NCBI RefSeq assembly: GCF_032854445.1
Contig: NW_027018057.1
Span: 2,501-66,500, forward strand
Source: Liolophura sinensis
Taxonomy: Eukaryota > Mollusca > Polyplacophora > Chitonida > Chitonidae
Direction: 5' to 3'
DNA length: 64,000 bases
Made by a program: the position numbers and the translations under genes. Below, one piece after another: positions 19,937-46,044 of the stretch. The notes under the pieces were generated by a model. That model was not told the DNA's origin, made no database searches, and was given only the letters and a program-made list of their open reading frames with translations. Each line of letters begins with the position of its first letter. The first letter of the stretch is position 1.

Positions 19937-20499
19937 GTATGACTTTTGGACTGTATGTCTGGTTGCTGCGTGCTGCGCTGCATGTGCACACGCGTCACAC
20001 TGAATTCGACTGGAAAGCAGACGTGAACAATGAACGCCGAGGCCGCCAGTCAGCCGGAGCGGCTGTCAATTATTTCATGTATACTGTGATGTCACACAGA
20101 CGCGCCAGGCTAACAATGAACGCTGTCGCCGTCAGTCCGCCGTCGAGCCGGCTTCTGCGTACTGTGATATCACAGAGACGCGCTACACCTGGCACGGCCG
20201 TCAGAGGACCGGCGGACGTCATAGAATTGTTGAGGCCAGGCGCAGTACGGCGGGGCGGCTGGTACTTTGTGAATATTAGAAAATCCTAGAAATGGACCAG
20301 TAGACCATGGCGCCACGCTGAAATTTTTGGGAAAAAATTTCCCATAATTCCCCCTTCCGCCCTGTGATACAGTGATCAGTATCGCTTCTCGGCTGCATAC
20401 ATACGCATGTGATACGCACATAAGGAGTGCAGACACCAGTGCACCCACGTGGTACACGGGAGGTATTGGGTGGTGTTGGATCTCGGGAAACTTATCAGT
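19937..20499 (+). promoter_or_regulatory. U2 unit A upstream spacer and promoter
   Basis: About 560 bases nearly identical to the sequence before U2 B and U2 C. The last about 100 bases (CATAAGGAGTGCAGACACC... to GATCTCGGGAAACTTATCAGT) are the most conserved, as expected for the proximal sequence element region of an snRNA gene. Two degenerate palindromes related to TGACGTCA lie at about 20085-20095 and 20162-20172. This is the left edge of the array: homology to the other units begins at 19937. Confidence 0.75.
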
Positions 20500-20526
20500 A
20501 TCGCTTCTCGGCCTTTTGGCTAAGAT
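20500..20526 (+). pseudogene. U2: U2 snRNA unit A, nucleotides 1-27
   Basis: ATCGCTTCTCGGCCTTTTGG and the next seven bases equal the universally conserved 5' end of U2 snRNA. The next base is no longer U2: Keno-1 begins. The rest of this U2 copy is at 29461-29554 and 35470 to about 35529. Intact U2 would base-pair with the intron branch site and with U6; this copy cannot. Confidence 0.95.
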
Positions 20527-20654
20527 ATTTGCGGTTTCAGGTTGATATCTGTTAAGCCTTGATCTTTAAGACAGCAATATACACCTGTCATATTTTGTTG
20601 GAGGGGCTGTTGTCACTCCCAGTGTCAGATCGTTGTGTTCCCGTTTTGGCCTAG

Positions 20655-20698
20655 ACCCCGGGTGGAGGCGCCCGGGGTAAAAACAGAAGTCTGTTTTT
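20655..20698 (+). other. Two adjacent hairpins just before the Keno-1 ORF1 start
   Basis: ACCCCGGG/CCCGGGGT (20655-20662/20671-20678, 8-base loop) is followed directly by AAAAACAG/CTGTTTTT (20679-20686/20691-20698, 4-base loop). Both stems are perfect, and the ATG of ORF1 is at 20703. Role unknown; absent from Keno-2 and Keno-3. Confidence 0.7.
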
Positions 20699-20702
20699 CA
20701 GC

Positions 20703-21703
20703 ATGGATTCCAGAAGACTGGAAAGGACGGTGAGGGTGACGTTTAATAACCCTCCCAGTGGAGATGTCCATCTCCTACTCTTCTCTTACCTCGTGGATTA
20801 GAAGAGATTTTCGAAGGATTCATTTGAAGGGATAGGGCAATTGCGTGTGTCCAAGGATTGGTAGGTCTTGTTCCGTACCAAGGAACAGGCCAGGAAAGCT
20901 ATGGCTCTGCCAGCGACCAGATGCGACAAGTTAGACTCAGGATTTACCTTCTCGGTCTTTCTCAAAAGGCACGTCTGTCTAAGGATCCACTGGCTACCTC
21001 TAGCCCTTGGCAAGGAGTCAGTGGATCGTTTTGTGCGTTCCTTTGGCGAAATCCTGGACTCGGGATTTGCTAGACATGCGAAACCGGCCTTCATGATGGT
21101 GTCCGGAGCTATAAGCTCTCGGTTTCTGTAGACAAGTTGCAATACCCGATGTTGCATCTATCAGTGGCTTTCATGCCCTCTTTGTTGTTGGGGGTCGTCC
21201 CCTCCTCTGCCTGAGGTGTGATGGGCGCGGCCATCTTCGAAGGGAGTGTGTCGCGGTTGCATGTGAAAGTTGTGCTGTTGGAGGTGGAGCCTGCTGCAGG
21301 CTGTGAGACGTCGTCGTCAGTCCCGCCTGCATCAGTCATGGAAGATGCTGATGGCGCCTCAGTAGTGCCCAGCGAGGGTGATGTACTGCCACTCACCTCG
21401 GCGGTGGAAGGTATGAAAGAGGACCCGCCCGGTTTCTCTAATGATCTTTGTGTCGGTGCTGTTTCTGTTCATGCCAGTGTTACACCGCTTCCACCCAATC
21501 GGGTGGCTCCAGTCAACTTGAGCCAGGCTTCCACCGTTGTGAGTCCGTTGAAGGACGATGATTCCCTTTCAGGTTCGGATTCCTACATTTCGCTTCAGCC
21601 CTCACTGACTGCTATCACGTCTTCGGACCTGCCGGCAGACTTCATTGGCCATGACGACATGGGCGGTGGAGATGGCCGAAAGCGTGCGTCGGAAAATTTG
21701 TGA
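20703..21703 (+). pseudogene. Keno-1 ORF1, decayed
   Basis: Remains of the nucleic-acid-binding ORF1 protein. It starts MDSRRLERTVRVTFNN at 20703, similar to MDPGRLRRTVRITFKQ of Keno-3. Further matching pieces are SFEGIGQLRVSKDW and VCLRIHWLPLALGKESVD. Several stops and shifts interrupt it (a TAG after YLVD and others). The zinc-knuckle region, near 21180-21270, is present only as a damaged LCLRCDGRGHLRR-like stretch. The acidic, Ser-rich C-terminal part is open at 21218-21703. Confidence 0.8.
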
Positions 21704-23604
21704 TCTCTTCCTGGTAAACAGTGTCGACGCTAGGACAATGGACACGTACGTGAGTGTGCTTATTTGCTTATATTCAATATCTTTAGTTTTAAGATGTTTC
21801 TACTGAAACTCTTACTTTCTAATTACTCTTACTTATGTTTAGGCTTATTGCTAAGTATGGCTAGTTTATCTTTCCGCTCCATTAATTGTAACAGCTTGCT
21901 TTCTTATCCTAAGTTCCCTACGTTGGCTACTTTTTGTAGCACTTTGAATTTTGACATTGTCTTTCTCCAGGAGACTCACCTGGACTCTACTGGAGTTCAA
22001 AAGCAGTGGGAGTCCCCCTGGGGAGGGCAATGTTGTTTTTCTTTTGGTTCTAATTTTAGTTGTGGAGTCGGAATCTTGTTCCACCCCCGATTAGCAGTTG
22101 AGTTGGGCAAGATCCATAGGGACTTGTCCGGTCCTTTACTTTGCGTTGATTGTTCCGTTAATAATTTTAAGTTACGTTTAATTTCGGTCTATGCTCCCAC
22201 TAGGGAGATTGATAGGCCAGAGTTCTTTCGTTCTTTGGTTCCCTTTTGTGTTTCAAGGCGGCCCATTGTCCTAGCGGGCGACTTTAACTGCATCTTAGAT
22301 GCTGATATTGATAAGGATGGGGGTAACCCGGACCGCGGCTTAGGCGGTTCCGAGGCCCTCAGGTCTTTATCAATCAGAGAAAAATCTGAGCACAGTTTTC
22401 GTTACGTTAATCCCACGGCCCGTTCTTATTCATGGTCAAATGGTTCAGTTTCTTGTTTGCTTGATCGTATTTTTATTTCTTCCTCCTTGGTGAAGTATTT
22501 GGCCAAGTCAAACATTTCAGTTTGTTCAATTTCTGATCATTCCTTTGTTAATGCCTTTTTGGTTTCCCCCCCGTCGACGGCGGTTGGGCCGGGCTACTGG
22601 CACTGTAACGTCAGTGTCCTGTCTGACCCCGACTTTCGGGTGGATTTTCTAGACTTATGGTCTGTCTTTTCGGACTCTGCAGACCATTCCCATTCCTGGT
22701 GGGAGGAATTTAAACATGAAGTTAAGTTGCTTATTATTTCCCACAGTCGCAGGTTATCAAAAGTGAAAAACTCTACCATTCGCCTTCTCCGCAAACAAAT
22801 TTCGGAACTTTTGGCCTCTGACCCTAGCTCCCCCTCGCTTTCGGATCTGAAAAGTGAATTAAACGATTTAGTTGCTTCATTTAACTTTGGCGTCAAAATC
22901 AGATCAAAAGCCGTTAAGTTTAATTTCGACGACAAGTCCTCCCGTTTCTTTTTTAATAAGGAGAAGGCTAGAGCACAACGTAAAGTCTTTGATTTTCTTA
23001 CCGTTGATGGTTCTGTTTCTGATCAGTTGGAATTTATTTCCGCCGTCCGGTCTTTTTATTCTTCCTTATTTTCGACAGAGCCAGTTATAGATACTTACCT
23101 GAATTATTTCTTTTCTGATTTGCCTTCGTTGTCCCCGGCGGAGTCCGAATCACTCGAGGGTCCTATTAGCCTTGAGGAGGTGCGGGCTGCGCTGGCGGGG
23201 ATGAAGGACTTTTCTTCCCCTGGATCGGACGGTTTGCCCCAAGAGTTCTAGCGCCGAATTCATAAAAGTCGTTTAAGGTGTGTGCAGTTGAAACGCGCTT
23301 ATCTTTTACACGGAGGATAAAACACTATTGTCCGCGGATAGCTAAACGACTGTCTAAACGATAAGTCAGGAGCTTCGATGATCGTCCGTTTAGTTGTCCG
23401 CGGATTACTTGTGAATGAATGCCTGTCGTCTCATTGTTCGGTACGGTATGCGTGGTGTAAGTCGTCATAAAAGTAAATATAATACAAATAGACAGCGGGA
23501 GTGAAACATAGTCAAACAGCGCCAACAGTGTGATGTTTGAAATATGGTGACACTAAACCGACGATACCACGCTGAATGTACTGTGCATTTCCAATTCATC
23601 CAAA

Positions 23605-24791
23605 ATGTCAGGAAAGAAGAGAGGGGAAAATTTTTCCTACGAGCAGCGAATGGGTCTCATTGAGATAATTAAGGTCGACCTCACTGTCGTAGAAGATAAG
23701 AGTTGAGACACATCAGCCAACAGAAAGAAGCAGGCAGCATGGGAGAAAATCTCCAAAGAAATGTCTGCTAATTTTCCCGAGCGACCAAAATCGTCTGCGA
23801 AGGATCTACGAGAGTTGTGGAGGAGGATGAAAACAAAGGCAAAAGCGATGGTTCGAGCGAAAAAAATCGATCTGCACAAAACTGGTGGTGGAGCGGCTGA
23901 TGTTGGTGAACTTGGCCCTGAAATCATGGCTATCTTGGCAATCATTGCTGTGGATCTGGAGCAAGTACATAACGATGTAGATGATGATGCAATACCAATG
24001 TTTGAAGGATTGGCACAAACACAAACAGACATCGATAATGTTACGGCATCGACTAACACGGCGGACTTACAAGAAAGGTATTTCAAAACTTTTCATCGCA
24101 AGGTGGTATCTTGATAATACAGTGATTATTACAGCTTTTATTTTCTGACTTATCCAGCAACGGTTGTGTGCCTCAGAACTGTCTGCAGTATAATTTTCAC
24201 TGTAAACCGGACCTTATGTGCAGATTGTATGGTGAATGAGGAAGGAAAGAATATTCCAAAGTGTTTAATTCCGAACAATAAATGGGCATAGCAGGTTTTT
24301 TCTTCTTAAAACATTGTTATTTATTCTTTAAATAATCAAAGTACATATATCATTGTTCTATTACAGGGCAAATCGAGAATATTCCGAGAACATTTCTTCT
24401 GCCGAAGAACACGAGGAACTAGAAGGTCGTGGCGCCCTTGATATAACGCAGAATACCCAACCATACAAGCCTACCCTCATATCAACTGAGTAAGATGTGT
24501 TTCTTAAAGGGTTGCACTTTGCACTTGAGCTGCTGTCATCTACATTGTTCATATGTATTCCTTATTGTACTTTTCAGGGGAAAAAAGACATCCTCAACAG
24601 CTACACGTCATGAGTCGGGACCGGTACTGCAGAAGACGACTGAAGCATTGACTTACCTAAAAGAGGAACATGAAGCAAAGATGGCGTTGATTGAACTTCA
24701 AAAAGAGGCAGCAATATGCAAACGAAAAGCCTACGAAGCGAAATCTGATTACTACAAAGAAAAACTTAGACGCAAGCGTATTGATTTGTAA
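23605..24791 (+). pseudogene. Harbinger MYB/SANT-like gene, three exons, one stop
   Basis: Accessory DNA-binding protein of the transposon, which in this superfamily helps the transposase reach DNA and the nucleus. Exons fitted by eye are 23605-24077, 24367-24489 and 24578-24791, with donors GTATTT and GTAAGA and acceptors TTACAG and TTTCAG. The frame is maintained across both introns. Exon 1 starts MSGKKRGENFSYEQRMGLIE and holds the tri-helical MYB/SANT-like domain (WEKISKEM, KDLRELWRRMKTKAK). The last exon is a Lys/Glu-rich coiled coil (ALIELQKEAAICKRKAYEAK) ending RKRIDL. A TGA at 23704-23706 (codon 34) breaks the domain; everything else is open. Confidence 0.85.
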
Positions 24792-24851
24792 AATGATTTC
24801 TATCTTTGAATTAAATAAGACATTGTCCAGAAACTGTTTGCTTTGTTTTGC

Positions 24852-26267
24852 TCACTGATTGAAATGTTGCACAACGAATTTCTGTCGAAATAGGTTGCCT
24901 CGTAAGTCCGCTTCAACCGCGTTCAGTGGTCGAATTGGTTCCTCAAGGTTTTGTCTCGGCAGGTCTGGCTCAGGCTCAGGCAGAGGATCATGTCGTCGTC
25001 TTGCCAGGTTATGTAAGCAGGCAGTTGCAACTATAATAGCCATGTTGTGATCCAGCTGAAATTGAAGCGGCGATTAATGTACACGTATTGAGATCTAAGT
25101 ACTGTATATGAAATAAAGCTGAAATAAAAGTGACTTATGTGAGGGAACATTATTATTTTAGTGTCGTCAGAAAATGTTCTACGTCACACCCTACTAAACC
25201 ACCGTATTAAAATGGATTCTACTTTGAAACAATTTGAAACAACTCCTCTCATTCAGGAAAATATTAAGTAAAAACGGATAATATTTTTTTCAATGATTTC
25301 CAAACAGTTTCTGCGGACAAATCGTTTATTGTGGTTTTGTGAAATAAACTGACATTGCATTTACTTGCTGAACACCTCAGATGCATTCCCTTGGAAATGC
25401 ATGGAAATCTTTTCTTCCAAATCCCAAATGCTCTTTCAATCACTCCCCTTGTTCTTCTCTGAGCAGTATTGTAATGAATCTCTGCTGGTGTCATCGCATT
25501 GCGAAAAGGAGTGAGCATGAATTGGCGACACGTGTACGCTGGATCCCCAAGCAAAATACCTTGGCATTCTCCTGTCTGGAATTTACGGAATAGTTCCGAC
25601 TCCTCAAATACCCGAGAGTCATGTGCTGAACCATACCATCTGGCAACAACGTTCGTGAAGATAAGTTGATGGTCACACACAAGCTGACAGTTGAGGCTGT
25701 AATATCCTTTTTATAAACTTTTTATATCCTTTTATAAACCGTAAAGCATCCCTGCCACCAGCATTTACAATTGCTACATGGGAGCCATCGATAGCGCCAA
25801 TAACACCAGGGAAATGCGTAATCTCATAAAACCCCTATGCAACTACTCGTCTTTCTTGCAGTGTGTCGGGGAAATGAATAAACTGCCTTTTCCTGGCACA
25901 AATCGCGGCAGAGACACGATGAATAGCCCTGCAACACGACGCTTGTGACACTCCACACATGTCCCCAACATCCATCTGAAACGATGCTCTCACATAGAAT
26001 CGTAATGCAACTGTCAACTGTTCAAGAGGAGTTAGTGCATAATTCCTCCTGGTTGCGGGCAGCAGGTCATCTTGTAATAAATTCAGCAGCCAACGAAACG
26101 ATTCTATGGAGATCCTTTAACGTCTGATGAATTTTGTATCATCGTATTTCTCTTAAGGGATTTATTCTATTCTCAAAAACCCTGACGGCATGCCCATGAT
26201 CACAGCGCATCTGTACCTCTTCCCCTGCCTCGTCCTGAGCAAACTCTAACAGTGCTAGGGCATCCAT
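24852..26267 (-). pseudogene. Harbinger transposase (DDE nuclease), broken
   Basis: HARBI1-like nuclease on the minus strand, starting MDALALLEFAQDEAGEE at 26267. Recognisable in order are FENRINPLREIR, LTVALRFYVRASFQMDVGDM, GVSQASCCRAIHRVS, GVIGAIDGSHVAI (first catalytic D), ILLGDPAYTC (second D) and RTRGVIERAFGIWKKRF (E). A last exon, 25055-24852, reads LDHNMAIIVATACLHNLARR and ends VVQHFNQ. The intron between 25354 and 25055 is inferred (donor GTCAGT, acceptor TTTCAG). Defects are stops near 26145 and 25834 and a short tandem duplication near 25710-25735 that shifts the frame. Confidence 0.87.
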
Positions 26268-28185
26268 GTCAGCACCGTTCTGCACTAAACTTAGAGCGAT
26301 TCCCTCTGTAAAGTACCTAGTCGGAGCAGTTAAACATACCCCTCACTGACGATAAAACATTCCTTTGTTGTTTAGACGCGTGTGGTTAAATTTTGATCGG
26401 GTGTCATTTAATCACATCTTGTGAATCGGCGACTAAGAATAAATAGGCGATGATCGCATGATTAGTGCTTTTACACGCGTGTAAACTTTAAAACACCTTT
26501 ATGAATTCGGCCCCTATTCTTTATTTCTTGATGTAATTGGTCCAGATTTAGTTACTTACCTCAATCGTTGTTATGATGAATTTAAATTGTGCGACTCTCA
26601 GTCGTTATGTTACATCTCTCTTATTTGTAAGGACGCCAGCCAGGCCGACAATCTAAAATACTGGCGTCCGATATCGTTACTAAATTTAGACTATAAGATC
26701 ATCTCCAAAGTCCTATGTAATCGGTTAAACACTGTAATGTCTGTTTTGGTTCACCCGGATGAGACTTGTTCTGTTCCGGGCAGATCTATTTTAGACTATT
26801 GCCATTTGCTTAGAAACATTATTGATTATGTAGACTCTAAAGATATTCCTGCTTTATTCTTATGTATCGATAATGAGAAGGCCTTCGGTCGCGTTTCTCA
26901 TGAGTACCTCTTCCGGCTATTAGAAGTTTATAATTTCGGCCCCTTGTTTCGGCGCTGGATCAAGCTCCTGTATTCGGAGTCAAAAGCCTCGGTTTTGGTA
27001 AACGGTTTTATTTCGGATCAGTTTGCGCTGTCTAGCGGCGTCCATCAGGGATGTGCTTTAAGTCCCTTGCTTTATGTGCTCTCTTTGGAACCCCTCCGCA
27101 AAGCCCGAAATTAAAGGAGTTAAACCTCCAGGTACCCAAAAAGTTGTTAAATTATCCGCGTTTGCAGACGATATTTCCTGCACCCTTATATCAAGGCCTT
27201 CAGTTATTCATGTAATTAACTTATGTAAGCTTTTTGGTTTGGGTTCAGGTTCCAAAATCAACCTGACTAAAATGTATGGGTTATGGCTCGGTCGATGATC
27301 ACAGTCGGTCGAGCCTACACTATACTCTGTGACAATGTTCAAAGATGTCAAGAAAATCCTGGGTTGCCGCTTAGGCTCGGCTAGTACGAGTACTATTCAG
27401 GAAAGCAATTGGCGTCCGCTTATAAATAAGATATACGATGTTTTTAATCTATGGAAGAACAGGCATTTGTCTTTTAAAGGCCGTTCTGTTTTAATTAACG
27501 TATTAGCGCTATCCAAACTATGGTATGTCGGTTCTATTTTGCCCCTCTCCCAAGAGTATCTTAAGTTGCTTAATCATTCAGTTTTTTGGGGGTGGCACTC
27601 ATGAGTGACTAAAGAGGGATGTCTTATTTAATCCAGTCTCTTCTGGGGGTTTTGGTTTGGTTCATATCCCTTCTAAGTTAAAAGCGTTTCACCTTATGCA
27701 TTTAAAACGTTTAGTTTGTTTATTTCAGTCGGAAGAGTGCCCTATGTGGTGCTATTTCGCAATGTATTGGGTGGGCCTTCAGTTACTTTGCCTTTGTCCT
27801 TCTTTTGCTAGTAATTTAATTCCCCATTCTACTTCTGTTCCTTTGTTTTACCAGAATGCCCTCGCGGCATTCTCTGAGTTTGTTCTGTTATCCCCTGATG
27901 CCGATCTGTTATCTTTTTCATCTAAAAAAGCCTATGCTGTCTTTGTTTCCCCCGTATGTGTTCAGCCCTCTGTTGTTAAACTGTTCACCAATATTGATTT
28001 TGTCTCTGTGTTCAAGAATGTAAATGTAAATATTTTAGAAAACAACGTAAAGAACTTTTTGTTTAGGCTTGTAAATAGAATGTTGTATACAGGGTGCTTC
28101 TTAAACAAAATTTGTAGAGAACCCCGTCGTTATTTATGCTTATTTTGTGGTGCTCATTGGGAAACCATTGAAAACTGTGCTTGAC

Positions 28186-29217
28186 AACTTGTCGTCCCGT
28201 GGATTTCCTTCGGTTCATGCCCTTGGCAGCTGCGCTCTCCCAGAGAATGGTTCCTCACCCTACCTAATGCCTCCACTGTTCAGCGTCTGCTGTCTGTGCA
28301 TAAACTCTCTTGTGACCAGTGTCAAGTGACCATTACACGCTTTGACAAGCGGGATGTATCCATTCGTCTCCACTGGCTGTCCTACTTTGCTTATGGCAAA
28401 GTACTGTCTGTAGCCCCAGATGTTATCCCGGGCACTTCAATTCAAACTGATATTCGGAGCATCTCTCTCCGTGTTAACTGTGAAGATCTGTGCAAATTGC
28501 CTTATGAATCTTCCATCCTTGGCTACCGTCCTTTGTGCCGTCTCTGGTCGCCCACCCAAATGTCTCCGCTGCAACGCCCTCGGACATGTCCGCCGGGAAT
28601 GCCCTTCTGTGCTCTGTTCCTCCTGTCGTGCTGTCCACTTGCCTGATTCTCCATGTTCTGTCCGGTCCTACGCCTCCATTGCGAAGCCTTTTTCCAATCC
28701 CTTTCCCCATTCGTCTGTAAACTTGTCAGATTCCGAGTCTAGCGATCCAGAATGTGTCCCTGAAAAGATGATTGTGGAATCACCTGCCGATCATGTCTCG
28801 ACTAATGAACCCCGGTTGAATAGTGAGCCTCGGGCATCACCAGCCTCCAGGAATGCCCCGGTATCGGCACCAGATGAATGCGACGGAACTGGCGTGAAGA
28901 GGCTAAAACGTGAACTCCACCTTCCTACAATTCCACCATACCCCGGAACGACGAATAGAGACTGTAGGCCAGTTCGTATCTCCAAGGAGGAGATGAATGA
29001 GTACAAGGAAAAGTTATTTATGGAAGGAAGTCGAAAACCTCGTATCAAATTTGGTCCCCACACCAAATTGTGCTACTCTCGCTGCATAGGGGGAGAGATA
29101 GAGGCTTTGGTGTGTTTCTGTGGAACTATAAGTCAACATTTCTACTGTAAAACTGCCGCGGTATATCTGCCCAGGTTTGATTTTTCCGCCATTTACGATG
29201 GGGGACCGTTGCCCTGA
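28186..29217 (+). pseudogene. Second ORF1-like coding sequence fused to the 3' side of Keno-1
   Basis: A LINE ORF1 protein that does not belong to Keno-1's own ORF1. The frame at 28188-28550 reads EWFLTLPNASTVQRLLSVHK, then VTITRFDKRDVSIRLHWLSY. After a frameshift near 28510 it reads SGRPPKCLRCNALGHVRREC and PSVLCSSCRAVHLPDSPC (zinc knuckles), then an acidic and basic tail ending FSAIYDGGPLP at 29217. The order 'FDKRDVSIRLHWL ... GRPPKCLRC' is that of Tx1-type ORF1 proteins. It lacks the N-terminus, so it is 5'-truncated. It is followed by a 240-base 3' UTR ending in the U2 junction. Confidence 0.72.
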
Positions 29218-29460
29218 GATGGTTAGTTCATTCATTTTGACCCTACCCCAAATTTACATCGTTTAAAATTTGTTATCCTCAGAACGTTTGCTGACTTTAT
29301 TTCGTTTTATTCTTTCCCGTTTCCAGCTTAACATCATTTTTAATGGGAATTTAATTCGTTTTTTCTACAAGTTTTTTTGAAGTTTACCGCGTCTGAGAAT
29401 TTTACTCGTATTTATTATTGTATATCTACTTATTGAATAAAGTTTTATGAAAAGAAAAAA

Positions 29461-29554
29461 AAGTATCTGTTCTTATCAGCTTAATATCTGATACGCCTTC
29501 CATCGGAGGGAATCGATATTAAACTGATTTTTGGAACTGGGTGAGAGATTTGGA
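29461..29554 (+). pseudogene. U2: U2 snRNA unit A, middle part
   Basis: Starts at about U2 nucleotide 34/35 (AGTATCTGTTCTTATCAGC) and includes stem IIa sequence and the Sm site GATTTTTGG (29526-29534). It stops at GTGAGAGATTTGGA, where LINE-3 is inserted. Compared with intact U2, nucleotides 28-34 are missing at the Keno-1 junction. Confidence 0.93.
29539..29554. repeat. Target duplication of LINE-3 (U2 sequence), 3' side
   Basis: GGGTGAGAGATTTGGA, repeated at 35454-35469. Confidence 0.9.
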
Positions 29555-29810
29555 ATAAATGAATGATTATGGCTTTACGTCACATCGGCAATATTTCAGC
29601 CATATCGTGGCGAGAACATGTTTAAAACCAGGAATCAGTATATGGTTTTCAAGACTGAAGTATGAACATACAAAACAAATGAAAAATGACAGACATGTTT
29701 AAAACTAGGTAAAACAATCAAAGCTCTTTAAAAACTTGAAAACCACAAAGCTTTTGAAATTTTAATTTGTATATATGAACTAGAAATATCTATGTGAAAT
29801 AAAAATAAAA

Positions 29811-34803: not shown

Positions 34804-35453
34804 ACTGTGTTTGTGTTAATTTCACCCTACGTGTCCCCCACCCACCACGGAGTGCCAACAAGGGCGGTGTCAGAGCCTGCGGATATCCAGCAGGATACAC
34901 ACCGAGGATTCCACGAAAGGTATACTCAGATAGCCGCCTAGATGAGTTAACCAAATTTCCTTAACGAACTCCTCCCTTATTCACCCGTGGAAAAAAGGTC
35001 ACACATCAGATACCCACTATCCAATTGACCCATGAGCCACCGCCCCAAACTATAGTCCCGCAAACCAGATTTTAGTCAATGTGGCAATTCGCTCTTTGGA
35101 GATGTTGATAACAAGTTTGGGACTACGAAGAGGCAAGACATGACCAGCCAATTGATTGAACCGGGCCCATCCGACCTCCCGTCTCTCTCCAAGTAAGGGC
35201 CAAAGCGGAGTGTTGGGCGTGAGGATCTCGCAAGACCAACACACCCTCAGCCACCAGGATCCCGTCCTCGTAGATTACGGGTTGCAACCCACGGCAAACA
35301 AGTCGCTCCCCGGTTGCCTCTCACACAACCGGGAAGATGTGAGCCTATTATATTCACAGGGCTCACACAGGAGAGCTCTAGGTTAGTCGACTTTTACGAC
35401 AAGCTTGCCTAGAGGGCTGAGGTCCTATTCTTATCACCCCGGAAACCCCACGG
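34804..35453 (-). promoter_or_regulatory. LINE-3 5' UTR
   Basis: About 650 bases, conserved with the other copies at both ends (CCCCGTGGGGTTTCCGGGG at the terminus) but divergent in the middle (35000-35140). Holds the CCGGTTG/CAACCGG hairpin. Promoter role inferred. Confidence 0.6.
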
Positions 35454-35469
35454 GGGTGAGAGATTTGGA
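35454..35469. repeat. Target duplication of LINE-3 (U2 sequence), 5' side
   Basis: Copy of 29539-29554; it then runs on into the rest of U2 A. Confidence 0.9.
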
Positions 35470-35529
35470 GCTTGCTCCATTCTCGCCACGGGATAACCCG
35501 GTATTGCAGTACTTCCGGGACTGGCCCAC
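35470..35529 (+). pseudogene. U2: U2 snRNA unit A, 3' part
   Basis: GCTTGCTCCATTCTCGCCAC and the stem-loop IV end GGTATTGCAGTACTTCCGGG, as in U2 of other animals. The mature 3' end is near CTGGCCCAC. Separated from 29461-29554 by LINE-3. Confidence 0.92.
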
Positions 35530-35689
35530 AACTCCTAACACAAATGAAAATCAGACTTAAAATTCGAAAGCCAATTTCTGCACTTAGTCCTCACTTTTAT
35601 CGTACTGTCAGGTCAGGTAATTGTACATATGTTGTAAGATGTATGCTTGGTTATTGTTATTGTATTATGCAGGCTGTGTATCATATATA
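35530..35689 (+). terminator. U2 A downstream region with 3'-box-like motif
   Basis: About 160 bases shared with the region after U2 B. ACAAATGAAAATCAGA (about 35540-35555), roughly 12 bases after the U2 end, resembles the metazoan snRNA 3' box (GTTTN0-3AAARNNAGA), which directs 3'-end formation. The unit is then broken by Tc1-A copy 2. Confidence 0.6.
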
Positions 35690-37154
35690 CTAGTGCTCAA
35701 AAGAAAGTATACGCCAAAACAAATACATAAAAATCGCGCAAAGTAAAAAATTGAGAAATTATCCATGATGAGCCTTATTACCCGTGTAAACGCCGATCCA
35801 TCCAGGGAACAAACTGGCCCAACAAAGCAAGATTTGCCTAAACTTAGCATAAAATCGAAAAATGGCCCTTCCACGTGTAACACGACATGAACGTGCATTT
35901 TGGCGGTATAAATGAGTCGACGGGAAACGTTAGGAACACAGTCCTCAGAAAAACACCAGAGGTATGCCACGTTTGAGCCAAGTTGAGCGAGAGAGAGCTG
36001 TCGGCATGGCCCAGCAAGGAGCGACCAACGCCGCCATTGCCAGAACCTTTGGTTGCACAAGAGCAACTATCGTCAGACTTATGCAGCGACTCCGGCAGAC
36101 AGGCGTTACATCCGACAGGCCTAGGAGCGGTCGACCACGCGTCACCACCCCCGCTGAAGATCGACACATCCGGACCATTCACCTCCGCAATCGGAACATA
36201 ACGGCAACTTCAACGGCGGCGACGGCACTAGGGCACCCGATTAGTCGACACACAGTCTACCGTCGACTACGTCAACACGGTATTAGGGCACGTCGGCCGT
36301 ATTGTGGAGTTTATCTGACGCCTCAAAATCAACGAGAGCAGGTTTTGCGTGTACAAAAATGACGGTCGGGCTAGGATATACACGCGTGTAGGAGAACGTT
36401 TGGTGCCAAATTGCGTTCAGCAAGTTCGAGCGTTTGGAGGTGGTAGTGTGATGGTGTGGGGAGGCATCTGCGGCGATCTGAAGACGAGGCTGGTGGTGAT
36501 TCATGGGAACCTCAATGCTCGCAGATACACGGATGAAGTTTTACGACCGGTTGTAGTGCCATTCATCCACCAACAGCAAAGAGGAATTTTGTACCAGCAT
36601 GACAATGCAAGACCTCATACTGCAAGATTGACGAACAACTTTTTACAGAACGCCAACATCGATCTCTTACTATGGCCGGCATGTTCACCCGACCTCAATC
36701 CAATTGAACACTTATGGGACCACCTGGGCAGACAAGTCAGAAGATTGCCAGTGCCACCTGTGACCGTTCAACAGCTGGAAGAGTGTCTCCAACAGGAATG
36801 GCAACGAATCACACCTAACGTCATTCGACGCCTGACGTCATCAATGCGGCGACGTGTTGTGGCCTGCATCAATGCCAATGGAGGCCACACTCGCTACTGA
36901 GCATGATTTGAATGACATTTCCAGAAGAAAAAATACTTCATTTGAATTTTGCAAATGTGTAAATGTTCTGTTGACACCACATTTCTTTGACTGACCATCA
37001 AACCAAACCTTCACCATTTAATAAACTGTATGTATGGACGTTTCAGGTGAAATGGAATATTCTTATGGAATTAAAAAGAATTTCAAATATATTTTTTTCC
37101 GTTTTTATTTGATGTCTGATCAAACAGCTGTATACTTTCTTTTGAGCACTAGTT
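35690..37154 (+). mobile_element. Tc1/mariner transposon, family A copy 2, in the U2 spacer
   Basis: Element with perfect 23-bp inverted terminal repeats at 35690-35712 and 37130-37152, plus TT. TA lies at 35688-35689 and 37155-37156. The spacer after U2 B (42181-42205) is the empty site: ATCATATATA continues directly into TATGTGTTGCC there. Near-identical to copy 1 but with a 74-base internal deletion and small indels. Confidence 0.94.
35964..36900 (+). pseudogene. Tc1-A transposase with internal deletion
   Basis: Same protein as at 1398-2408 with the usual MPRLSQVERERAV start. After residues LTPQNQ (36334) 74 bases are missing compared with copy 1. The junction shares ACG, so deletion between short repeats is likely. 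It removes the first catalytic aspartate (FSDES) and shifts the frame. The second part, 36349-36900, keeps HDNARPHTA, NPIEHLWDHLGRQ and the natural GGHTRY end, and has CAG where copy 1 has its TAA. Confidence 0.92.
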
Positions 37155-37156
37155 TA

Positions 37157-37985
37157 TATGTGTTGCCATCATTTGTGTGCATATGCTCGTTACAGTAATA
37201 AAGCAGTATTTATTATAGTCTACTTTTCTTCTTTATTAAACATTTGTTCCGCTTGCTCAGCTGTCAGCCCAGCGGGTATGACTTTTGGACTGTATGCCGG
37301 GTTGCTGCGCGCTGCGCTGCATGTGTACACGCGTCACAACTGAATTGGGCTGGAAAGCAGACGTGCACAATGAACGCTGAGGCCGCCAGTCAGCCGGAGC
37401 GGCTGTCAATCATTTCATGTATACTGTGACGTCACAGAGACGCGCCAGGCTAACAATGAACGCTGTCGCCGTCAGTCCGCCCGGCGTCGAGCCGGCTTAT
37501 GGGTACTGTGACGTCACAGAGACGCGCTACACCTGACACGGCCGGCAGAGGACTGGCGGACGTCATAGCATTGTTGAGGCCAGGCGCAGTACGTCGGGGC
37601 GGCTGGTAATTTGTGACGGGGCGACATGTAGGTAGGGCGTGTGTGTAGGCATATAGGCGGTGCAGATTTGTGCAAGAGATGTATACGGGCACGGGGTGTC
37701 TGTATGTAGGCATGCGAGTGCGGGCGGGCGGGCGGTCGGGCGCTGCATGCATACATACGCATGTGACAGGTATATTAGAACTCCTAGAAATGGGCCAGCC
37801 ACGCTGAAATTTTTGGGGAAAAATTTCCCATAACTCCCCCTTCCGCCCTGTGATGCAGTGATGAGTATGGCTTCTGGGCTGCATACATACGCATGTGATA
37901 CGCACATAAGGAGTGCAGACACCAGTGCACCCACGTGGTACACGGGAGGTATTGGGTGGTGTTGGATTTCGGGACACTGATCAGT
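37157..37985 (+). promoter_or_regulatory. U2 unit B upstream spacer and promoter
   Basis: Spacer shared with units A and C. Two exact palindromes CTGTGACGTCACAG lie at about 37424-37437 and 37506-37519, each within a repeat ending AGACGCGC; TGACGTCA is the CRE/ATF site. Unit B has 155 extra bases (37617-37771), GC-rich in part and ending in a near-copy of GCATACATACGCATGTGA found again at 37882-37899. The last about 100 bases before U2 are strongly conserved among units. Confidence 0.72.
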
Positions 37986-38013
37986 ATCGCTTCTCGGCCT
38001 TTTGGCTAAGATC
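37986..38013 (+). pseudogene. U2: U2 snRNA unit B, nucleotides 1-28
   Basis: Exact U2 5' end through GGCTAAGATC. The following TGTAAGTATCTTTGTC begins Keno-2 or is a worn copy of the target (see findings). Confidence 0.95.
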
Positions 38014-38095
38014 TGTAAGTATCTTTGTCGGAAGGGTAGAGAGGCGCCCCGCGACGGGCATTGTGCGTCGTCTAGGGTTCTACTAAGCTTCAAGG

Positions 38096-38366
38096 ATGGA
38101 TCCTGGTCGTTTGCGCCGCACTGTGAGGATAACCTTCAAACAGTTACCCCCCATCCACGGTAGTTGGTGTCCTGACAGACTGTGAGGTCATGTCTGTTTG
38201 TTTTCCTGCATCATCCGGTCTTTCGTCACCGGATTTCAATCTTGTAAATTTGGCGCAGGAAGGCTATCCCTCCGCTTATAGTGGTGACGAGATGGACTTC
38301 ACCGTGGTAAGAAAGCGCCGTAATAAAAGAGACTCAGGAACCCCTGAAAAACATAAAAAAGTTTAA
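38096..38366 (+). pseudogene. Keno-2 ORF1 with large internal deletion
   Basis: Begins MDPGRLRRTVRITFKQL as in Keno-3. At about 38150 it jumps to a sequence equal to 43913 onward of Keno-3 (TTGGTGTCCTGACAGACTG), so most of ORF1 with the zinc knuckles is gone. The 3' part ends KHKKV and a stop at 38364-38366. Confidence 0.82.
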
Positions 38367-38383
38367 TTTCAGCTGATTGAGAA

Positions 38384-41300
38384 ATGGCCAGTTTATCTTT
38401 TCATAGTATTAATTGTAATGGCTTGCTTACTTATCCTAAGTTCCCTACGTTAGCTACTTTTTGTAGCACTTTGAATTTTGACATTGTCTTTCTCCAGGAG
38501 ACTCACCTGGACTCTACTGGAGTTCAAAAGCAATGGGAGTCCTCCTGGGGAGGGCAATGTTGTTTTTCTTTTGGTTCTAATTTTAGTTGTGGGGTCGGAA
38601 TCCTGTTCCACCCCCGCTTAACAGTTGAGTTGGGCAAGATCCATAGGGACTTGTCCGGTCCTTTACTTTGCGTTGACTGTTCTGTTAATAATTTTAAGTT
38701 ACGTTTAATTTCGGTCTATGCTCCCACTAGGGAGATTGATAGGCCAGATTTCTTTCGTTCTTTGGTTCCCTTTTGCGTTTCAAGCCGGCCCCATTGTCTT
38801 AGCGGGTGACTTCAACTGTATTCTTGATATTTCTATTGATAAGGATGGGGGTAACCCGGGCCGCGGCTTAGGCGGTTCCGGGGCCCTCAGGTCTTTGTGC
38901 TTAGATTTTTGTTTGGTAGATGGGAGGAATTTAAACATGAAGTTAAGTTGCTTATTATTTCCCACAGTCGTAGGTTATCAAAAGTGAAAAACTCTACCAT
39001 TTGCCTTCTCCGCAAACAAATTTCGGAACTTCTGGCCTCTGACCCTAGCTCCCCCTCTCTTTTGGATCTGAAAAAAGAATTAAATGATTTAGTTGCTTCT
39101 TTCAACTTTGGCGTCAAAATCAGATCAAAAGCCGTTAACTTTAATTATGACGATAAGCCCTCCCGTTTCTTTTTTAATAAGGAGAAGGCTAGAGCTCAAC
39201 GTAAAGTCTTTGATTTTCTTACCGTTGATGGTTCTGTTGTTTCTGATCAGTTGGAATTTATTTCCGCCGTCCGGTCATTTTATTCTTCCTTATTTTCGAC
39301 AGAGCCAGTTGTAGATACTTACCTCGATTATTTCTTCTCAGATTTGCCTTCGTTGTCTCCGGCGGGGTCCGAATCACTTGATGGTCATATTACCCTTGAG
39401 GAGGTGCGGGCTGCGCTGGCGGGGATGAAGGACTTTTCTTCCCCTGGATCGGACGGTTTGCCCCAAGAGTTTTATTCTTTATTCCTTGATGTCATTGGTT
39501 CAGATTTAGTTACTTACCTCAATCGTTGTTATGATGAATTTAAATTATGTGAATCTCAGTCGTTATGCTACATTTCTCTTATTTGTAAGGACGCCAGCCA
39601 GGCAGACAATCTAAAATACTGGCGTCCGATATCCTTACTTAATTTAGATTATAAAATTATTTCTAAAGTCCTATGCAATCGTTTAAATTCTGTAATGTCT
39701 GTTTTAGTTCACCCGGATAAGACTTGTTCTGTTCCGGGCAGATCTATTTTACATAACTGCCATCTGCTTAGGAACATTATTGATTACGTAGATTCTAAAG
39801 ATATACCTGCTCTATTCTTATGTATTGATAATGAGAAGACCTTCGATCGCGTCTCTCATGAGTATCTCTTTCGGCTATTAGAAGTTTATAATTTCGGCCC
39901 CTCTTTTCGGCGGTGGATCAAGCTCCTGTATTCGGAGTCAAAAGCCTCGGTTTTAGTAAACGGTTTTATTTCGGATCAGTTTGCGCTGTCTAGGGGCGTC
40001 CACCAGGGATGTGCATTAAGTCCCTTGCTTTACGTGCTCTGTTTGGAACCCCTCCTTAATAAGATCCGTGCAAAGCCTGAAATTGAAGGAGTTAAACCTC
40101 CAGGTACCCAAAAAGTTGTTAAATTATCCGCGTATGCAGATAATATTTCCTGCACCCTTACATCAAGGCCTTCAGTCATTCATGTAATTAACTTATGCAA
40201 GCTTTTTAGTTTTGGTTCTGGCTCAAAAATTAACTTGATCAAAACGTATGGGTTATGGCTCGGCCGATGGTCACAGTCGGTCGAGCCTACACTATATTCT
40301 GTGACAATGTTTAATAATGTCAAAAAAATCCTTGGCTGTCACTTAGGCTCGGCTAGTACGAGTATTATTCAAGAAAGCAACTGGCGGCCGATTATAAATA
40401 AAATATATGATGTTTTTAATCTATGGAAAAATAGGCACCTGTCGTTTAAAGGCCGATCTGTTTTAATTAATGTAATAGCATTATCTAAACTGTGGTATGT
40501 TGGTTCTGTTTTGCCCCTCTCCCAGCAGTATCTTAAGTTGCTTAATCATTCAGTTTTTCAGTTCTTTTGGGGTGGCACTCACGAGTGCCTAAAGAGGGAG
40601 GTCTTATTTAATCAAGTCTCTTCTGGGGGTTTTGGTTTAGTCCACATCCCTTCTAAGTTAAAAGCGTTTTACCTTATGCATTTAAAACGTTTAGTTTGTT
40701 TGTTTCAGTCGGAAGAGTGCCCTATGTGGTGCTATTTCGCAATTTTTGGGGTGGGCCTTCAGTTACGCTGTCTTTGTCCTTCTTTTGCTAGTAATTTAAT
40801 TCGCCATTCTACTTCTGTTCCTTTGTTTTATGAGAATGCCCTCGCGGCATTCTCTGAGTTTGTTCGGTTATCCCCCGACGCCGATTTATTATCGTTTTTA
40901 TCAAAAAAAGCCTATACTGTCTTTGTTTCCCCTGTGTGTGTTCAACCCCCTGTCGTTAAGCTGTTCCCTAATATTGATTTTGTTTGTGTGTTTAAGAATA
41001 TAAATGTGAATATTTTAGAAAACAATGTCAAAAACTTTTTGTTTAGGCTTCTTAACAGAATCCTTTATACAGAGTGCTTTTTAAATAAGATTTGCAGAGA
41101 ACCCCGTCGCTATTTATGCTTATTTTGTGGTGCTCATTGGGAAACCATTGAGCACCTATTCTTTTCTTGCACCTTTGTTCGTCCCTTATGGCATTATCTC
41201 TCTGATTTAATTGAACGTTGGACTTTAATTTCTGTCCGTTTCTCGCTTCAGACTGTTGTGTTCTCTGTTTTCACACCTTGTGACAACAGATTTTATAATG

Positions 41301-41542
41301 ATTTCTTTCTGTTCCTTATTTCTCAGTTGAAGTGGATCGTGTGGAAGTGTAGGAATGAGCGAAAGCACCATCACCTCTCTTTCACTCGATCCCGCGTTAT
41401 TTCTCTCTTTGAGTCCTCAGTTCGCTCTCGTATTCGTGTTGAGTTTCATCGTTTACCTGTCCTTCAGTTTCTTGATCAGTGGTCCTGTGACCTACGTTTA
41501 TGTTTCGTTAACGAAAATAATGAATTGGAATTTCTGCTTTAA
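38384..41542 (+). pseudogene. Keno-2 ORF2, RT with altered active site
   Basis: Starts MASLSFHSINCNGLL. The endonuclease reads through QETHLD; an extra C near 38791 shifts the frame before AGDFNC. At about 38918 roughly 300 bases are missing, including the SDH motif. From 38897 to 41542 one 881-codon frame covers the RT and C-terminus: YWRPISLLNL, CIDNEKTFDRV, HQGCALSPLL, then YADN instead of YADD (40133-40144; GAT to AAT). The C-terminal CLFCGAHWETIEHLFFSC is a Cys-His motif typical of LINE ORF2. Endonuclease loss and the catalytic Asp change make it inactive. Confidence 0.9.
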
Positions 41543-41880
41543 TTGCATGTTGATTACTTTTGTACCATAAACTACTTACCTGTTTGTTATCTGCAGGTTC
41601 TCAAGATATTGATTACCAAATGCTGTTAATAAATAATTGTCTATGTACGCCTGTTATTTAGTGTAATTCATGTTAATATTAGTATAAATAATTGTATATA
41701 CTCACCGTCAAATCTTTTACTTACCTGTTGCTGGCGCTGGTCGCTTGCAACTCTTCATCCTGCTTTTATCCTTCATCATTGTACATAATGCATGCTCCAT
41801 TCCTGTAAATAGAGAAGTCGCAGAATGAATTAAATGTATGTATATCCTTGTTGAATAAACGTCTTTTCAAAGAAAAAAAA

Positions 41881-42033
41881 AAGTATCTGTTCTTATCAGC
41901 TTAATATCTGATACGCCTTCCATCGGAGGGCATCGATATTAAACTGATTTTTGGAACTGGGTGAGAGATTTGGAGCTTGCTCCATTCTCGCCACGGGTTA
42001 ACCCGGTATTGCAGTACTTCCGGGACTGGCCCA
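41881..42033 (+). pseudogene. U2: U2 snRNA unit B, nucleotide 34/35 to 3' end
   Basis: Uninterrupted 3' part of U2: stem II region, Sm site GATTTTTGG, GGAGCTTGCTCC stem III and GGTATTGCAGTACTTCCGGG stem IV. It differs from unit A by single bases. Together with 37986-38013 it gives the whole RNA except nucleotides about 29-34. Confidence 0.95.
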
Positions 42034-42320
42034 CAACTCCTAACACAAACGAAAATCAGACTTAAAGTTCGAAAGCAAATTTCTGCACTTTTTAGTCCTC
42101 ACTTTTATCGTACTGTCAGGTAATTGTGCATATGTTGTAAGATGTATGCTTGGTTATTGTTATTGTATTATGCAGGCTGTGTATCATATATATATATGTG
42201 TTGCCATCATTTTTTGTGCATATGCTGGTTGGTTACAGAAATAAGGCAGTATTATTATAGTCTGCTTTTCTTCTTTATTAAACATTAATTCCGCTTGCTG
42301 AGCTGTCAGCCCAGCGGGTA
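42034..42320 (+). terminator. U2 B downstream region
   Basis: Contains a 3'-box-like ACAAACGAAAATCAGA (about 42044-42059) and a (TA)n stretch at 42187-42197, which is the empty site of the Tc1-A insertion in the preceding unit. No other feature. Confidence 0.6.
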
Positions 42321-42885
42321 TGACTTTTGGACTGTATGCCGGGTTGCTGCGCGCTGCGCTGCATGTGCACACGCGTCACACTGAATTCGACTGGAAAGCA
42401 GACGTGAACAATTAACGCTGAGGCCGCCAGTCAGCCGGAGCGGCGCGGCTGTCAATAATTTCATGTATACTGTGACGACACAGAGACGAGCCAGGTTAAC
42501 AATGAACGCTGTCGCCGTCAGTCCGCCGTCGAGCCGCCTTCTGCGTACTGTGACGTCACATAGACGCGCTACACCTAGCTCGGCCGGCAGAGGACTGGCG
42601 GACGTCATAGCATTGTTGAGGCCAGGCGCAGTACGTCGGGGCGGCTGGTACTTTGTGAATATTAGAAAATCCTAGAAATGGACCAGTAGACCATGGCGCC
42701 ACGCTGAAATGTTTGGGAAAAAATTTCCCATAATTCCCCCTTCCGCCCTGTAATACAGTGATCAGTATCGCTTCTCGGCTGCATACATACGCATGTGATA
42801 CGCACATAAGGAGTGCAGACACCAGTGCACCCGCGTGGTACACGGGAGGTATTGGGTGGTGTTGCATCTCGGGAAACTGATCAGT
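42321..42885 (+). promoter_or_regulatory. U2 unit C upstream spacer and promoter
   Basis: About 565 bases closely matching unit A and lacking the 155-base extra block of unit B. One TGACGTCA site is kept (about 42551-42558); the other is changed to TGACGACA (about 42473). The conserved block directly before U2 is present. Confidence 0.75.
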
Positions 42886-42912
42886 ATCGCTTCTCGGCCT
42901 TTTGGCTAAGAT
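42886..42912 (+). pseudogene. U2: U2 snRNA unit C, nucleotides 1-27
   Basis: Exact U2 5' end through GGCTAAGAT, then Keno-3. The 3' part of this U2 is not in the window; it should lie beyond the right end, after the nested LINEs. Confidence 0.93.
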
Positions 42913-42987
42913 TTGTAAGTGTCTTTGTCAGAAGGGTAGAGAGGCGCCCCGCGTTATGCGTCGTTTAGGGTCTGTTAAGCATCAAGG

Positions 42988-44124
42988 ATGGATCCTGGTC
43001 GTTTGCGTCGTACAGTGAGGATTACCTTTAAACAGTTACCCCGTGGAGACGTCCCTTTATGTCTGTACAATTACCTGATTGAGGAGGAAGGTTTTCCAGT
43101 TGAGGCTTTCGAAGGGATTGGTCAACTGAGAGGTTCTAGGGACTGGTACATCCTGTTCTCATCTACCAGTTTTGCAGAGAATGCGGCAGAGCTTGAATTA
43201 AGAAGGCTGGAGAAATGTGAAGCGTCCTTTGTTGTGTCATCGTTCCTCAGGAAGATAGTAACCCTACGTGTTTATTGGCTGCCCCTTTCCTTGGACAACG
43301 ATGTGGTGAATGGATTCGTCCGGCAGTCTGGGGAAGTCCTTTCCTCTAGATTCGGAACCCATCAGACAACCCACCTACATAACGGGATGAGATGGTTTCG
43401 CCTCTCCGTGCAGGTGAGTAAAGTTGACTATATCCCCGATGTTATTTCTATAGAGAACTTTCCCGCACTTTTTGTCGTCCTTGGCCGACCCTCGTTGTGT
43501 TTACGTTGTGAAGGGCGCGGCCATGTCCGTAAGAAATGCACTGCTGTTCCGTGTGCTGTGTGCTGCTCTTTCCGACACCGCACGGTGGAGTGTAAAGACT
43601 CCTCGTGGTCTGACGGGGTGAGGGCAAGGGACGCACAGAAGGATGCGCACCCTGTCAAGTGTTTTGTCCCATGAAGAAGTGCAGCATACGTGCGACCAAC
43701 GTTCGCTGCCATGCGAGGAAACCCCCGTCCTGTCTACGGATGCTGACGGGCCAGATGTTAATGGTGATGTAGTGTCGGAGCGTAGTGGTGAGGACTCCGG
43801 GGCGGCTAACGTCGCTCAGCAGTCGGGCGATGATGTGGCGCAGGGAGACGTAGACAATACGTCTCCTGTCTTTCCTCCCAACTTGGTAGTGGACGCTTCT
43901 CAGAATCCTCCATCTACAGTGGTTGGTGTCCTGACAGACTGTGAGACATGTCTGTTTGCTCTCCTGCCTCATCTGGAGTTTCGTCACCGGATTTTAAACT
44001 TGTAAATTTGGCACAGGAAGGCTATCCCCCCGGTTATAGTGGTGATGAGATGGACTTCACCGTGGTGAGAAAACGCCGTAGTAAAAGAGATACAGGAACC
44101 CCTGGAAAACATAAAAATGTTTAA
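42988..44124 (+). pseudogene. Keno-3 ORF1, nearly complete, one frameshift
   Basis: The best ORF1 of this family here. It starts MDPGRLRRTVRITFKQLPRG. The middle reads EGFPVEAFEGIGQLRGSRDW and IVTLRVYWLPLSLDND. Zinc knuckles CLRCEGRGHVRKKC and CAVCCSFRHRTVEC (43501-43593) follow. A frameshift near 43660 ends the first 228-codon frame; the acidic C-terminal part continues in another frame from 43643, with a further change near 43950, to the stop at 44122-44124. The protein would bind element RNA. Confidence 0.86.
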
Positions 44125-44141
44125 TATCAGCTGATTGAGAA

Positions 44142-44725
44142 ATGGCCAGTTTATCTTTTCACAATATTAATTGTAATGGCTTGCTTTCTTATCCTAAGTT
44201 CCTTACGTTGTCTACATTTTGTAGCACTTTGAATTTTGGCATTGTCTTTCTCCAGGAGACTCACCTGGACTCTATTGAAGTTTAAAAGCATTGGGAGTCC
44301 TCCTGGGGAGGGCAATGTTGTTTTTCTTTCGGTTCTAATTTTAGTTGTGGGGTTGGAATCTTGTTCCACCCCCGATTAACTGTTGAGTTGGACAAGGTCC
44401 ATAGGGAATTGTCCGGTCGCTTACTTTGTGTTGATTGTTCCGTTAATAATTTTAAGTTACGTTTAATTTCGGTCTATGCTCCCACTAGGGAGACTGACAG
44501 ACCTGAGTTCTTTCGCTCTTTGGTTCCTTTCTGTGTTTCAAGCCGGCCCATTGTTTAGCGGGTGATTTTAATTGTATTTTTGATAAAAATATCGATAAAG
44601 ATGGGGGTAACCCGACCCGCGGCTTAGGCGGTTCCGGGGCCCTCAGGTCTTTGTGCTTAGATTTTTCTTTGGTAGATTGTTTTCGTTATGTTAATCCCAC
44701 GGCCCGTTTTAATTCATGGTCAAAT
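44142..44725 (+). pseudogene. Keno-3 ORF2, endonuclease fragment
   Basis: Starts MASLSFHNINCNGLLSYPKF and keeps QETHLD. A TAA at about 44284 and a lost base before GDFNC (near 44555) break it, and it is cut by LINE-4 after YVNPTARFNSWSN. RT not in window. Confidence 0.86.
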
Positions 44726-46033: not shown

Positions 46034-46044
46034 TACAATGGATT
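46034..46044. repeat. Target duplication of LINE-5, 3' side
   Basis: TACAATGGATT, repeated at 51930-51940; LINE-4 sequence. Confidence 0.9.

Follow-up and report, generated by a model that had tools for sequence, protein, structure and literature searches.

The genes for U2 small nuclear RNA (snRNA) are targeted by long interspersed nuclear elements (LINEs) of two described groups, Keno, which belongs to the Tx1 clade, and the early-branched Utopia. According to the passages on these elements in PMC4640811, Keno is reported from frogs, fish, lancelet and hydra, and its 3' flank equals that of Utopia; for Utopia of Phytophthora, the same passages let the 3' flank start from nucleotide (nt) 39 in the numbering of that species and give no 5' U2 part upstream. 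Other small RNA loci are used in zebrafish, where, as far as the relevant section of PMC3706591 states, Mutsu targets 5S ribosomal RNA (rRNA) and Dewa a transfer RNA-Leu (tRNA-Leu) spacer. Here, we describe a stretch of 64 kb (the window) within the 99-kb contig C118 of the chiton Liolophura sinensis, which holds a fragment of a U2 gene array. As the best explanation overall, this stretch of U2 array has probably been colonised by U2-targeting, Keno-like LINEs, and the explanation includes use of the U2 promoter, capture of a U2 hairpin and a shift of target between U2 and U4.

The assembly searched comprises 609 Mb in 632 contigs; only the best candidates were scored, and genome-wide copy counts are lower bounds. 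As suits a molluscan host, contig C8 carries eight consecutive Haemocyan_bet_s matches, and one of these units matches haemocyanins, the molluscan type, including KLH1 of the keyhole limpet. A 25-mer pattern for the U2 5' end, allowing up to 2 mismatches, gave 12 matches across the 609 Mb, as compared to none for the reversed control pattern, which excludes chance as their source. The matches comprise three intact U2 genes (on contigs C1 and C9 and at the right end of C5), eight broken copies (four on C118, four on C5) and one U2 fragment on C6. A genome-wide pattern for the 3' part, allowing up to 3 mismatches, had nine matches, namely the same three intact genes and six broken copies. All six U2 3' parts that adjoin a LINE begin at nt 36 and are preceded by an A-run. 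In the native numbering used here (GGCTAAGATC up to nt 28, AAAGTGT up to nt 35, A at nt 36, then GTATCTG), this A-run leaves the last base of the 3' junction ambiguous. On the other side, U2 breaks off between nt 27 and 35 in each of the eight broken 5' parts. Five of them lose U2 at nt 28 or 29, the broken unit at 11.2 kb of C5 matches to nt 30 with 2 mismatches before, and in two copies with a distinct 5' end (type 3, see below) the U2 reading can be extended to nt 35 if mismatches at nt 27, 31 and 32 are allowed. The missing target thus amounts to 5-8 nt in types 1 and 2 and perhaps to none in type 3, and a uniform target loss of 7 nt was rejected on these figures.

The occupied sites fall into two array fragments (C118; C5 from 10.8 to 102 kb) and one isolated unit (C5 16.02-16.03 Mb). 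No LINE end borders another U2 fragment, which covers nt 66-190 and is located at C118:86642. Among the intact genes only that on C5 carries the array spacer, so that in array context one intact unit was found as compared to eight broken 5' parts. This unit faces outwards at a distance of 405 bp from the end of its contig, so the live U2 array is probably unassembled. The preliminary description had taken the occupation of every visible unit to suggest a dead edge of the array. The eight broken versus one intact array unit, and the outward-facing position of the latter at a contig end, fit this idea, which is plausible for the C118 fragment rather than proven. The single match on C6 (C6:33349408, minus strand) consists of U2 nt 1-39 followed by an A-run; it was rejected as a U2 LINE and is probably a reverse-transcribed U2 fragment.

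Within the window, three copies of the array spacer lead into U2 5' ends at 20500, 37986 and 42886 that are exact, as previously described (100% over nt 1-27, 1-28 and 1-27), and U2 is indeed broken after nt 27 or 28 in all three units, designated A, B and C. The two 3' parts had been said to begin at nt 34/35, at positions 29461 and 41881. They begin instead at nt 36, at 29462 and 41882; the earlier figure seemingly arose because it was counted on a U2 with one A fewer (here GATC-AAAGTGT-AGTATC). That each gap is filled by one plus-strand LINE is correct in so far as such U2 LINEs are present, but the fillings are composite: A is interrupted and joined to another family, B is deleted and C is cut off. 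The features are the following.

20287-20499, plus strand: 5' spacer of the U2 array, unit A, promoter side; 93.5% identical to that of the intact unit on C5, with TGGTACACGG at -50 to -41, the offset seen in the C1 U2 gene
20500-20526, plus strand: U2 nt 1-27, unit A (100%)
20527-28171, plus strand: subfamily-I U2 LINE with type-1 5' end, in pieces 68-94% to the copy at C5 16.02-16.03 Mb; Exo_endo_phos
20535-20590, plus strand: U2-derived, stem-II-like hairpin in the type-1 5' untranslated region (UTR) of unit A; 34/56 identical to U2 nt 48-103, 17/23 pairs kept
28172-29461, plus strand: 3' part of a LINE of another family (fragment of open reading frame 1, ORF1, and 3' UTR), ending at U2 nt 36
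29462-29554, plus strand: U2 nt 36-128, unit A (98.9%)
29555-35453, minus strand: second, antisense LINE inside U2 of unit A, its borders set by the two U2 parts
35454-35531, plus strand: U2 nt 113-190, unit A, past the antisense LINE (98.7%)
35532-35689, plus strand: 3' spacer of the U2 array, unit A (89.9%)
37775-37985, plus strand: 5' spacer of the U2 array, unit B (89.4%)
37986-38013, plus strand: U2 nt 1-28, unit B (100%)
38014-41881, plus strand: subfamily-I U2 LINE with type-2 5' end, unit B; frame of the reverse transcriptase (RT) open, A-run at the 3' end
41882-42036, plus strand: U2 nt 36-190, unit B (100% to the intact array U2)
42037-42885, plus strand: inter-unit spacer, with 3' spacer to about 42403 and 5' spacer from 42673
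42886-42912, plus strand: U2 nt 1-27, unit C (100%)
42913-44726, plus strand: truncated U2 LINE with type-2 5' end and ORF1, unit C
44738-51480, minus strand: antisense LINE copies (apurinic/apyrimidinic endonuclease, APE; RT) cutting off unit C

DNA carrying a piece of a DDE_Tnp_4 transposase splits the LINE of unit A at about 23251-26514. The further family that supplies the 3' end in unit A was found only there and as a fragment at C118:70480. U2 copy A was invaded twice, since the minus-strand LINE is flanked on both sides by the 16 nt GGGTGAGAGATTTGGA, corresponding to nt 113-128. The element in unit B has lost the greater part of ORF1 together with about 300 bp of ORF2. A minus-strand LINE truncates the filling of gap C, and the window does not include the 3' U2 part of this unit. 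This fragment of the array is a graveyard of U2 genes, old and invaded several times. A piece of a DNA transposon with a DDE_3 domain also lies inside it (35934-36900, plus strand), and all three spacers carry, about 126 bp upstream of the gene, a short repetition of the beginning of U2 (GATCAGTATCGCTTCTCGGC; at 20374, 37860 and 42760; worn in unit B).

The second LINE, which has an APE endonuclease, an RT and an (ATTC)n 3' end, is always antisense to U2 where it occurs in the U2 graveyards. This orientation was seen for 33 of 33 pieces of at least 100 bp in 44990-51480 (minus strand) and the remainder of C118 up to 96.5 kb, for 7 of 7 in C5:6001-26000 and for 8 of 8 in C5:67001-107000. Once matches terminating at a repeat within the query are discounted, these regions hold 20 distinct 3' ends (13, 4 and 3) with differing flanks, all antisense.

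The U2 site is shared by elements with three types of 5' end. Type 1 is represented by four copies (unit A of C118; C5 at 89.6 kb, 16.02-16.03 Mb and 11.2 kb), type 2 by two (units B and C of C118), and two copies of type 3 reside in U2 (C118:87549 and C5:101810). By ORF2 they form two subfamilies, I comprising types 1 and 2, and II corresponding to type 3. The cleanest U2-flanked copy measures 5218 bp. Exo_endo_phos, RVT_1 and zf-RVT are the protein domains of the U2 LINEs, and PF03372, the APE-type endonuclease, precedes the RT (21734-23248 in the window, and also in stretches L013 and L015). ORF1 has CCHC-like motifs by eye; Pfam gave a single zf-CCHC match, below its cut-off, and this belongs to the further LINE family in unit A. 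When the RT of a copy on C11 was compared by phmmer, the match to L1 reached 2.8e-65 versus 1.9e-17 for R2. Judged from these sequences, the occupants are LINEs of the L1 superclade with an APE endonuclease and an RT nearer to L1 than to R2. In the genome search with an RT query, the best 53 of 1370 candidates were scored, and the RT of unit A was not among the matches listed.

A 3' UTR query, for which all candidates were scored, located eight places, five of them at U2 nt 36 and three elsewhere (C11:9930595, C11:3662839 and C12:27026180), the latter belonging without exception to subfamily II. With the type-1 5' end as query, 4 of 4 matches were in U2, and with the type-2 5' end 2 of 2, these being the two C118 units. 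Subfamily I looks strict in the sample found, and subfamily II leaky. Five of the eight 3' UTR places and all four type-1 5' ends thus lie in U2. The preliminary description had proposed a U2-specific LINE in an invertebrate; repeated insertion at one position by APE-type LINEs bears this out, but the specificity is not strict, as three of the eight 3' UTR places are elsewhere. As a novelty for invertebrates the proposal falls, since Keno is already listed for lancelet and hydra in the passages of PMC4640811. A seeming type-3 5' end at about position 880 of L015 was dropped as a coincidence; it lies within the stretch that interrupts ORF1 of the C11 copy.

This off-target type-3 copy on C11 provides the clue to where the RNA of these elements starts. 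It was inserted between the genes of a tandem U4 array, in a spacer and 33 bp upstream of a U4 gene. Its 5' end reads, in order, U4 spacer, GAAT, T, U2 from nt 5 and the type-3 5' end, and its 3' end consists of an A-run followed by GAAT and U4 spacer; ORF1 is interrupted by an insert of about 4.8 kb. The 20-mer TCTCGGCCTTTTGGCTAAGA has 11 exact matches, of which only that at C11:9920809 is not at a U2 gene or part of one, while 0.001 would be expected for it by chance assuming equal base frequencies. The copy agrees with both U2-resident type-3 copies at nt 27, 31 and 32, all unlike U2; at nt 27, a T is present in all three intact U2 genes and in all six type-1 and type-2 copies. As the head of the C11 copy carries the same three differences, its RNA most likely started in U2, which, to judge from this DNA sequence, is evidence for use of the U2 promoter. 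In the intact array unit, in seven of the eight broken units and in the U2 gene on C1, whose flanks are otherwise different, positions -50 to -41 are taken up by the 10-mer TGGTACACGG, possibly the snRNA promoter element.

Insertion into U2 would put the element under the U2 promoter, and therefore it would need no promoter of its own; its RNA would start at U2 nt 1. The APE endonuclease would nick the U2 gene beside nt 36, where the A-tail would prime reverse transcription, and the U2-derived 5' end of the RNA would let the cDNA join at the matching U2 sequence.

The 5' UTRs of all four type-1 copies found resemble U2 nt 50-109, collinearly and directly behind the junction. In 56 ungapped columns, 39, 35, 35 and 34 positions are identical to U2. 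When the first 82 nt of the element were aligned with U2 nt 29-115, none of 3000 dinucleotide shuffles reached the score for any of the four copies, and this focused alignment test detected no U2 hairpin in the four copies of types 2 and 3. In the 553,328 bases that were scanned, both strands included, no place besides U2 genes or fragments and type-1 5' UTRs reaches 33/56. U2 has a predicted hairpin of 23 pairs here, of which 20 are kept in the copy at C5 11.2 kb, 19 each in those at C5 16.02-16.03 Mb and C5 89.6 kb, and 17 in unit A of C118. The corresponding null means are 14.5, 11.7, 12.4 and 11.1, and values as high occurred in 51, 8, 16 and 41 of 20,000 cases, respectively. Seven hairpin pairs are changed on both sides (6 distinct rows, two of them U2 genes; 2 of 500 shuffles). 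From the alignment, type-1 elements have no counterpart of roughly U2 nt 35-46, the region that pairs with the branch site. The hairpin would derive from read-through RNA of an earlier 5' junction located further downstream, and would persist since its RNA structure is useful.

A sister family provides the comparison with another snRNA gene. Two elements are inserted inside U4 genes of the C11 array, and their RTs are 51% identical to the query RT. U4 extends to nt 69 upstream and resumes from nt 53-55 downstream at both complete 3' ends, and the 15 bp TTGCTAGTTGAAAAC (nt 55-69) are duplicated on both sides. The 3' UTR of this family matched three places, all in the U4 array region of C11, the third only partially; a search for U4 itself gave 41 matches on C11 and one on C9 (best 42 of 74,039 candidates). 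Identity between the two copies is 97-99% along most of the element, and a single insertion duplicated together with the array could account for both; their A-runs differ. No U4-derived sequence was detected in their 5' ends, 1916 and 1920 of 2000 shuffles scoring as high. In the RT tree, the U2 subfamilies I and II are sisters (support 97/97), the U4 family joins them (97/99), families linked to tRNA and 5S genes pair with each other (100/100), and all of these together with two further families of the genome stand apart from L1 (99/96). Target choice would accordingly be expected to have shifted between snRNA genes within one LINE lineage. No U4-targeting retrotransposon was found in the open-licence PubMed Central papers searched, an absence there which is not proof of novelty.

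The tRNA-linked family lies near tRNA genes at varied flanks, with a tRNA match in 15 of 16 stretches of 1.5-2 kb at the 3' flanks (L018-L026, L028, L031-L034, L036 and L037; not L032), as compared to none in the 64-kb window. The 3' end of L031 resembles that of the 5S-linked L035 and not the tRNA-linked family. L035 and L041 (C4:8.117 Mb) represent a relative of the tRNA-linked family beside three tandem 5S rRNA genes.

Which other explanations could account for these data? Most occupied copies lie in array fragments, and type-1 5' ends share 79-89% identity with the one at C5 16.02-16.03 Mb, as would suit many broken units being duplicates of one or a few occupied units generated by unequal exchange, with repeated targeting being overstated. 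We consider this improbable, because three types of 5' end, two subfamilies and one further family share the U2 site, identity between subfamilies I and II is 64-76% across much of ORF2 and rises to 80-89% near its end, and one occupied unit is about 16 Mb away from the fragment at the left end of C5. For the U2 head in the U4 spacer, template jumping of the RT onto free U2 snRNA would replace transcription from the U2 promoter. Human L1 is known to form chimeras of its cDNA with U6 and other snRNAs, and the fragment at C6:33349408 indicates that U2 was seemingly reverse-transcribed in this genome as well. Nevertheless, the junction between the C11 head and the type-3 5' end is identical to that of the U2-resident copies, which share its three differences from U2, and none of the three intact U2 genes shows these; template jumping is left with a small chance. 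That the occupants are Utopia itself has next to no probability: it targets the same gene according to PMC4640811, but here an APE-type endonuclease lies N-terminal to the RT and the RT of the C11 copy scores far better with L1 than with R2. On the endonuclease type, identity with Utopia was rejected.

Colonisation by U2-targeting LINEs that start in U2 and carry a hairpin captured from it has to be weighed against several observations. The three subfamily-II copies found outside U2 are scattered over unrelated sites, where the apparent duplications measure 4 bp, about 40 bp and about 180 bp, the latter two at copies that are 5'-truncated. The transduced U2 head was seen in one copy only, use of the U2 promoter is read from DNA rather than from transcripts, and the 10-mer is missing from the U2 gene on C9 and from the broken unit at 11.2 kb of C5. 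As to the hairpin, a first shuffle test (400-nt targets, 300 shuffles each way) had its score reached by at least one shuffle in three of four type-1 copies, and the four copies share one ancestor. Two of them (C5 89.6 kb and C118 unit A) are not predicted to fold in this way alone (z -1.90 and -0.63), and four hairpin pairs are broken in three or four of the four copies. The Rfam U2 model detected nothing in the 5' UTR of two copies without the U2 head; the claim therefore relies on the sequence and pairing tests. To a neutral U2 fossil without function, left for example by an ancestral insertion with target duplication, we assign a chance somewhat short of even. The U4 sister makes a 15-bp duplication of its target, so U2 sequence could have remained upstream in an ancestor; types 2 and 3 manage without a hairpin, and the broken pairs fit as well. 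Against a fossil, pairing is well above the random-substitution null and some changes are compensated.

Taken together, these U2-resident LINEs are new in their host and, as far as the open-licence papers searched show, in three features, namely evidence that their RNA starts in U2, a hairpin that one lineage took over from U2, and a sister family that targets U4. Combined, these features would give a LINE lineage that has specialised on the genes of spliceosomal snRNAs, has moved between U2 and U4 as targets and is transcribed from the promoter of the snRNA gene it occupies; in one of its branches, the RNA would begin with an imitation of U2. In this full form, we regard the proposal as tentative and rather unlikely. 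If true, the look-alike would consist of host U2 nt 1-28 with stem-loop I, followed by the partly compensated stem-II hairpin of the element, and would omit the branch-site-pairing stretch. Such a mimic would serve the LINE RNA, for instance in early transcription, capping, nuclear retention or assembly of a ribonucleoprotein. The data provide sequence evidence on the likely transcription of an snRNA-resident LINE, which location alone merely suggests. They add U4 to the snRNA genes serving as LINE targets, place the change between U2 and U4 on a tree and offer a test case for capture of a host RNA structure by a retrotransposon. As more broken than intact units of essential low-copy genes were found, they also bear on the load that concerted evolution can carry.

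R2 in 28S ribosomal DNA and CZAR/SLACS in spliced-leader genes are likewise residents of multicopy RNA genes that use transcription of the host gene; the occupants described here differ from them in endonuclease class and host gene. To judge from the title of a paper, a mobile element with a 5' part derived from an snRNA is also described; the occupants here are LINEs of autonomous type seated within the snRNA gene. Mutsu and Dewa are paralleled by the related families beside 5S and tRNA genes in this genome; in contrast to Dewa, the tRNA-linked family lies at varied flanks near tRNA genes and not in one spacer sequence. With Keno, known here by its description in PMC4640811, the occupants share the U2 target and the APE-type endonuclease, while the host is a mollusc as compared to the frogs, fish, lancelet and hydra named there; from their sequence they may be called Keno-like in target, which does not prove them Keno. 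Utopia differs by its restriction-like endonuclease as compared to the APE type found here, and resembles the chiton locus in that, in the passages of PMC4640811 concerned with it, broken U2 genes outnumber intact ones and several families reside together.

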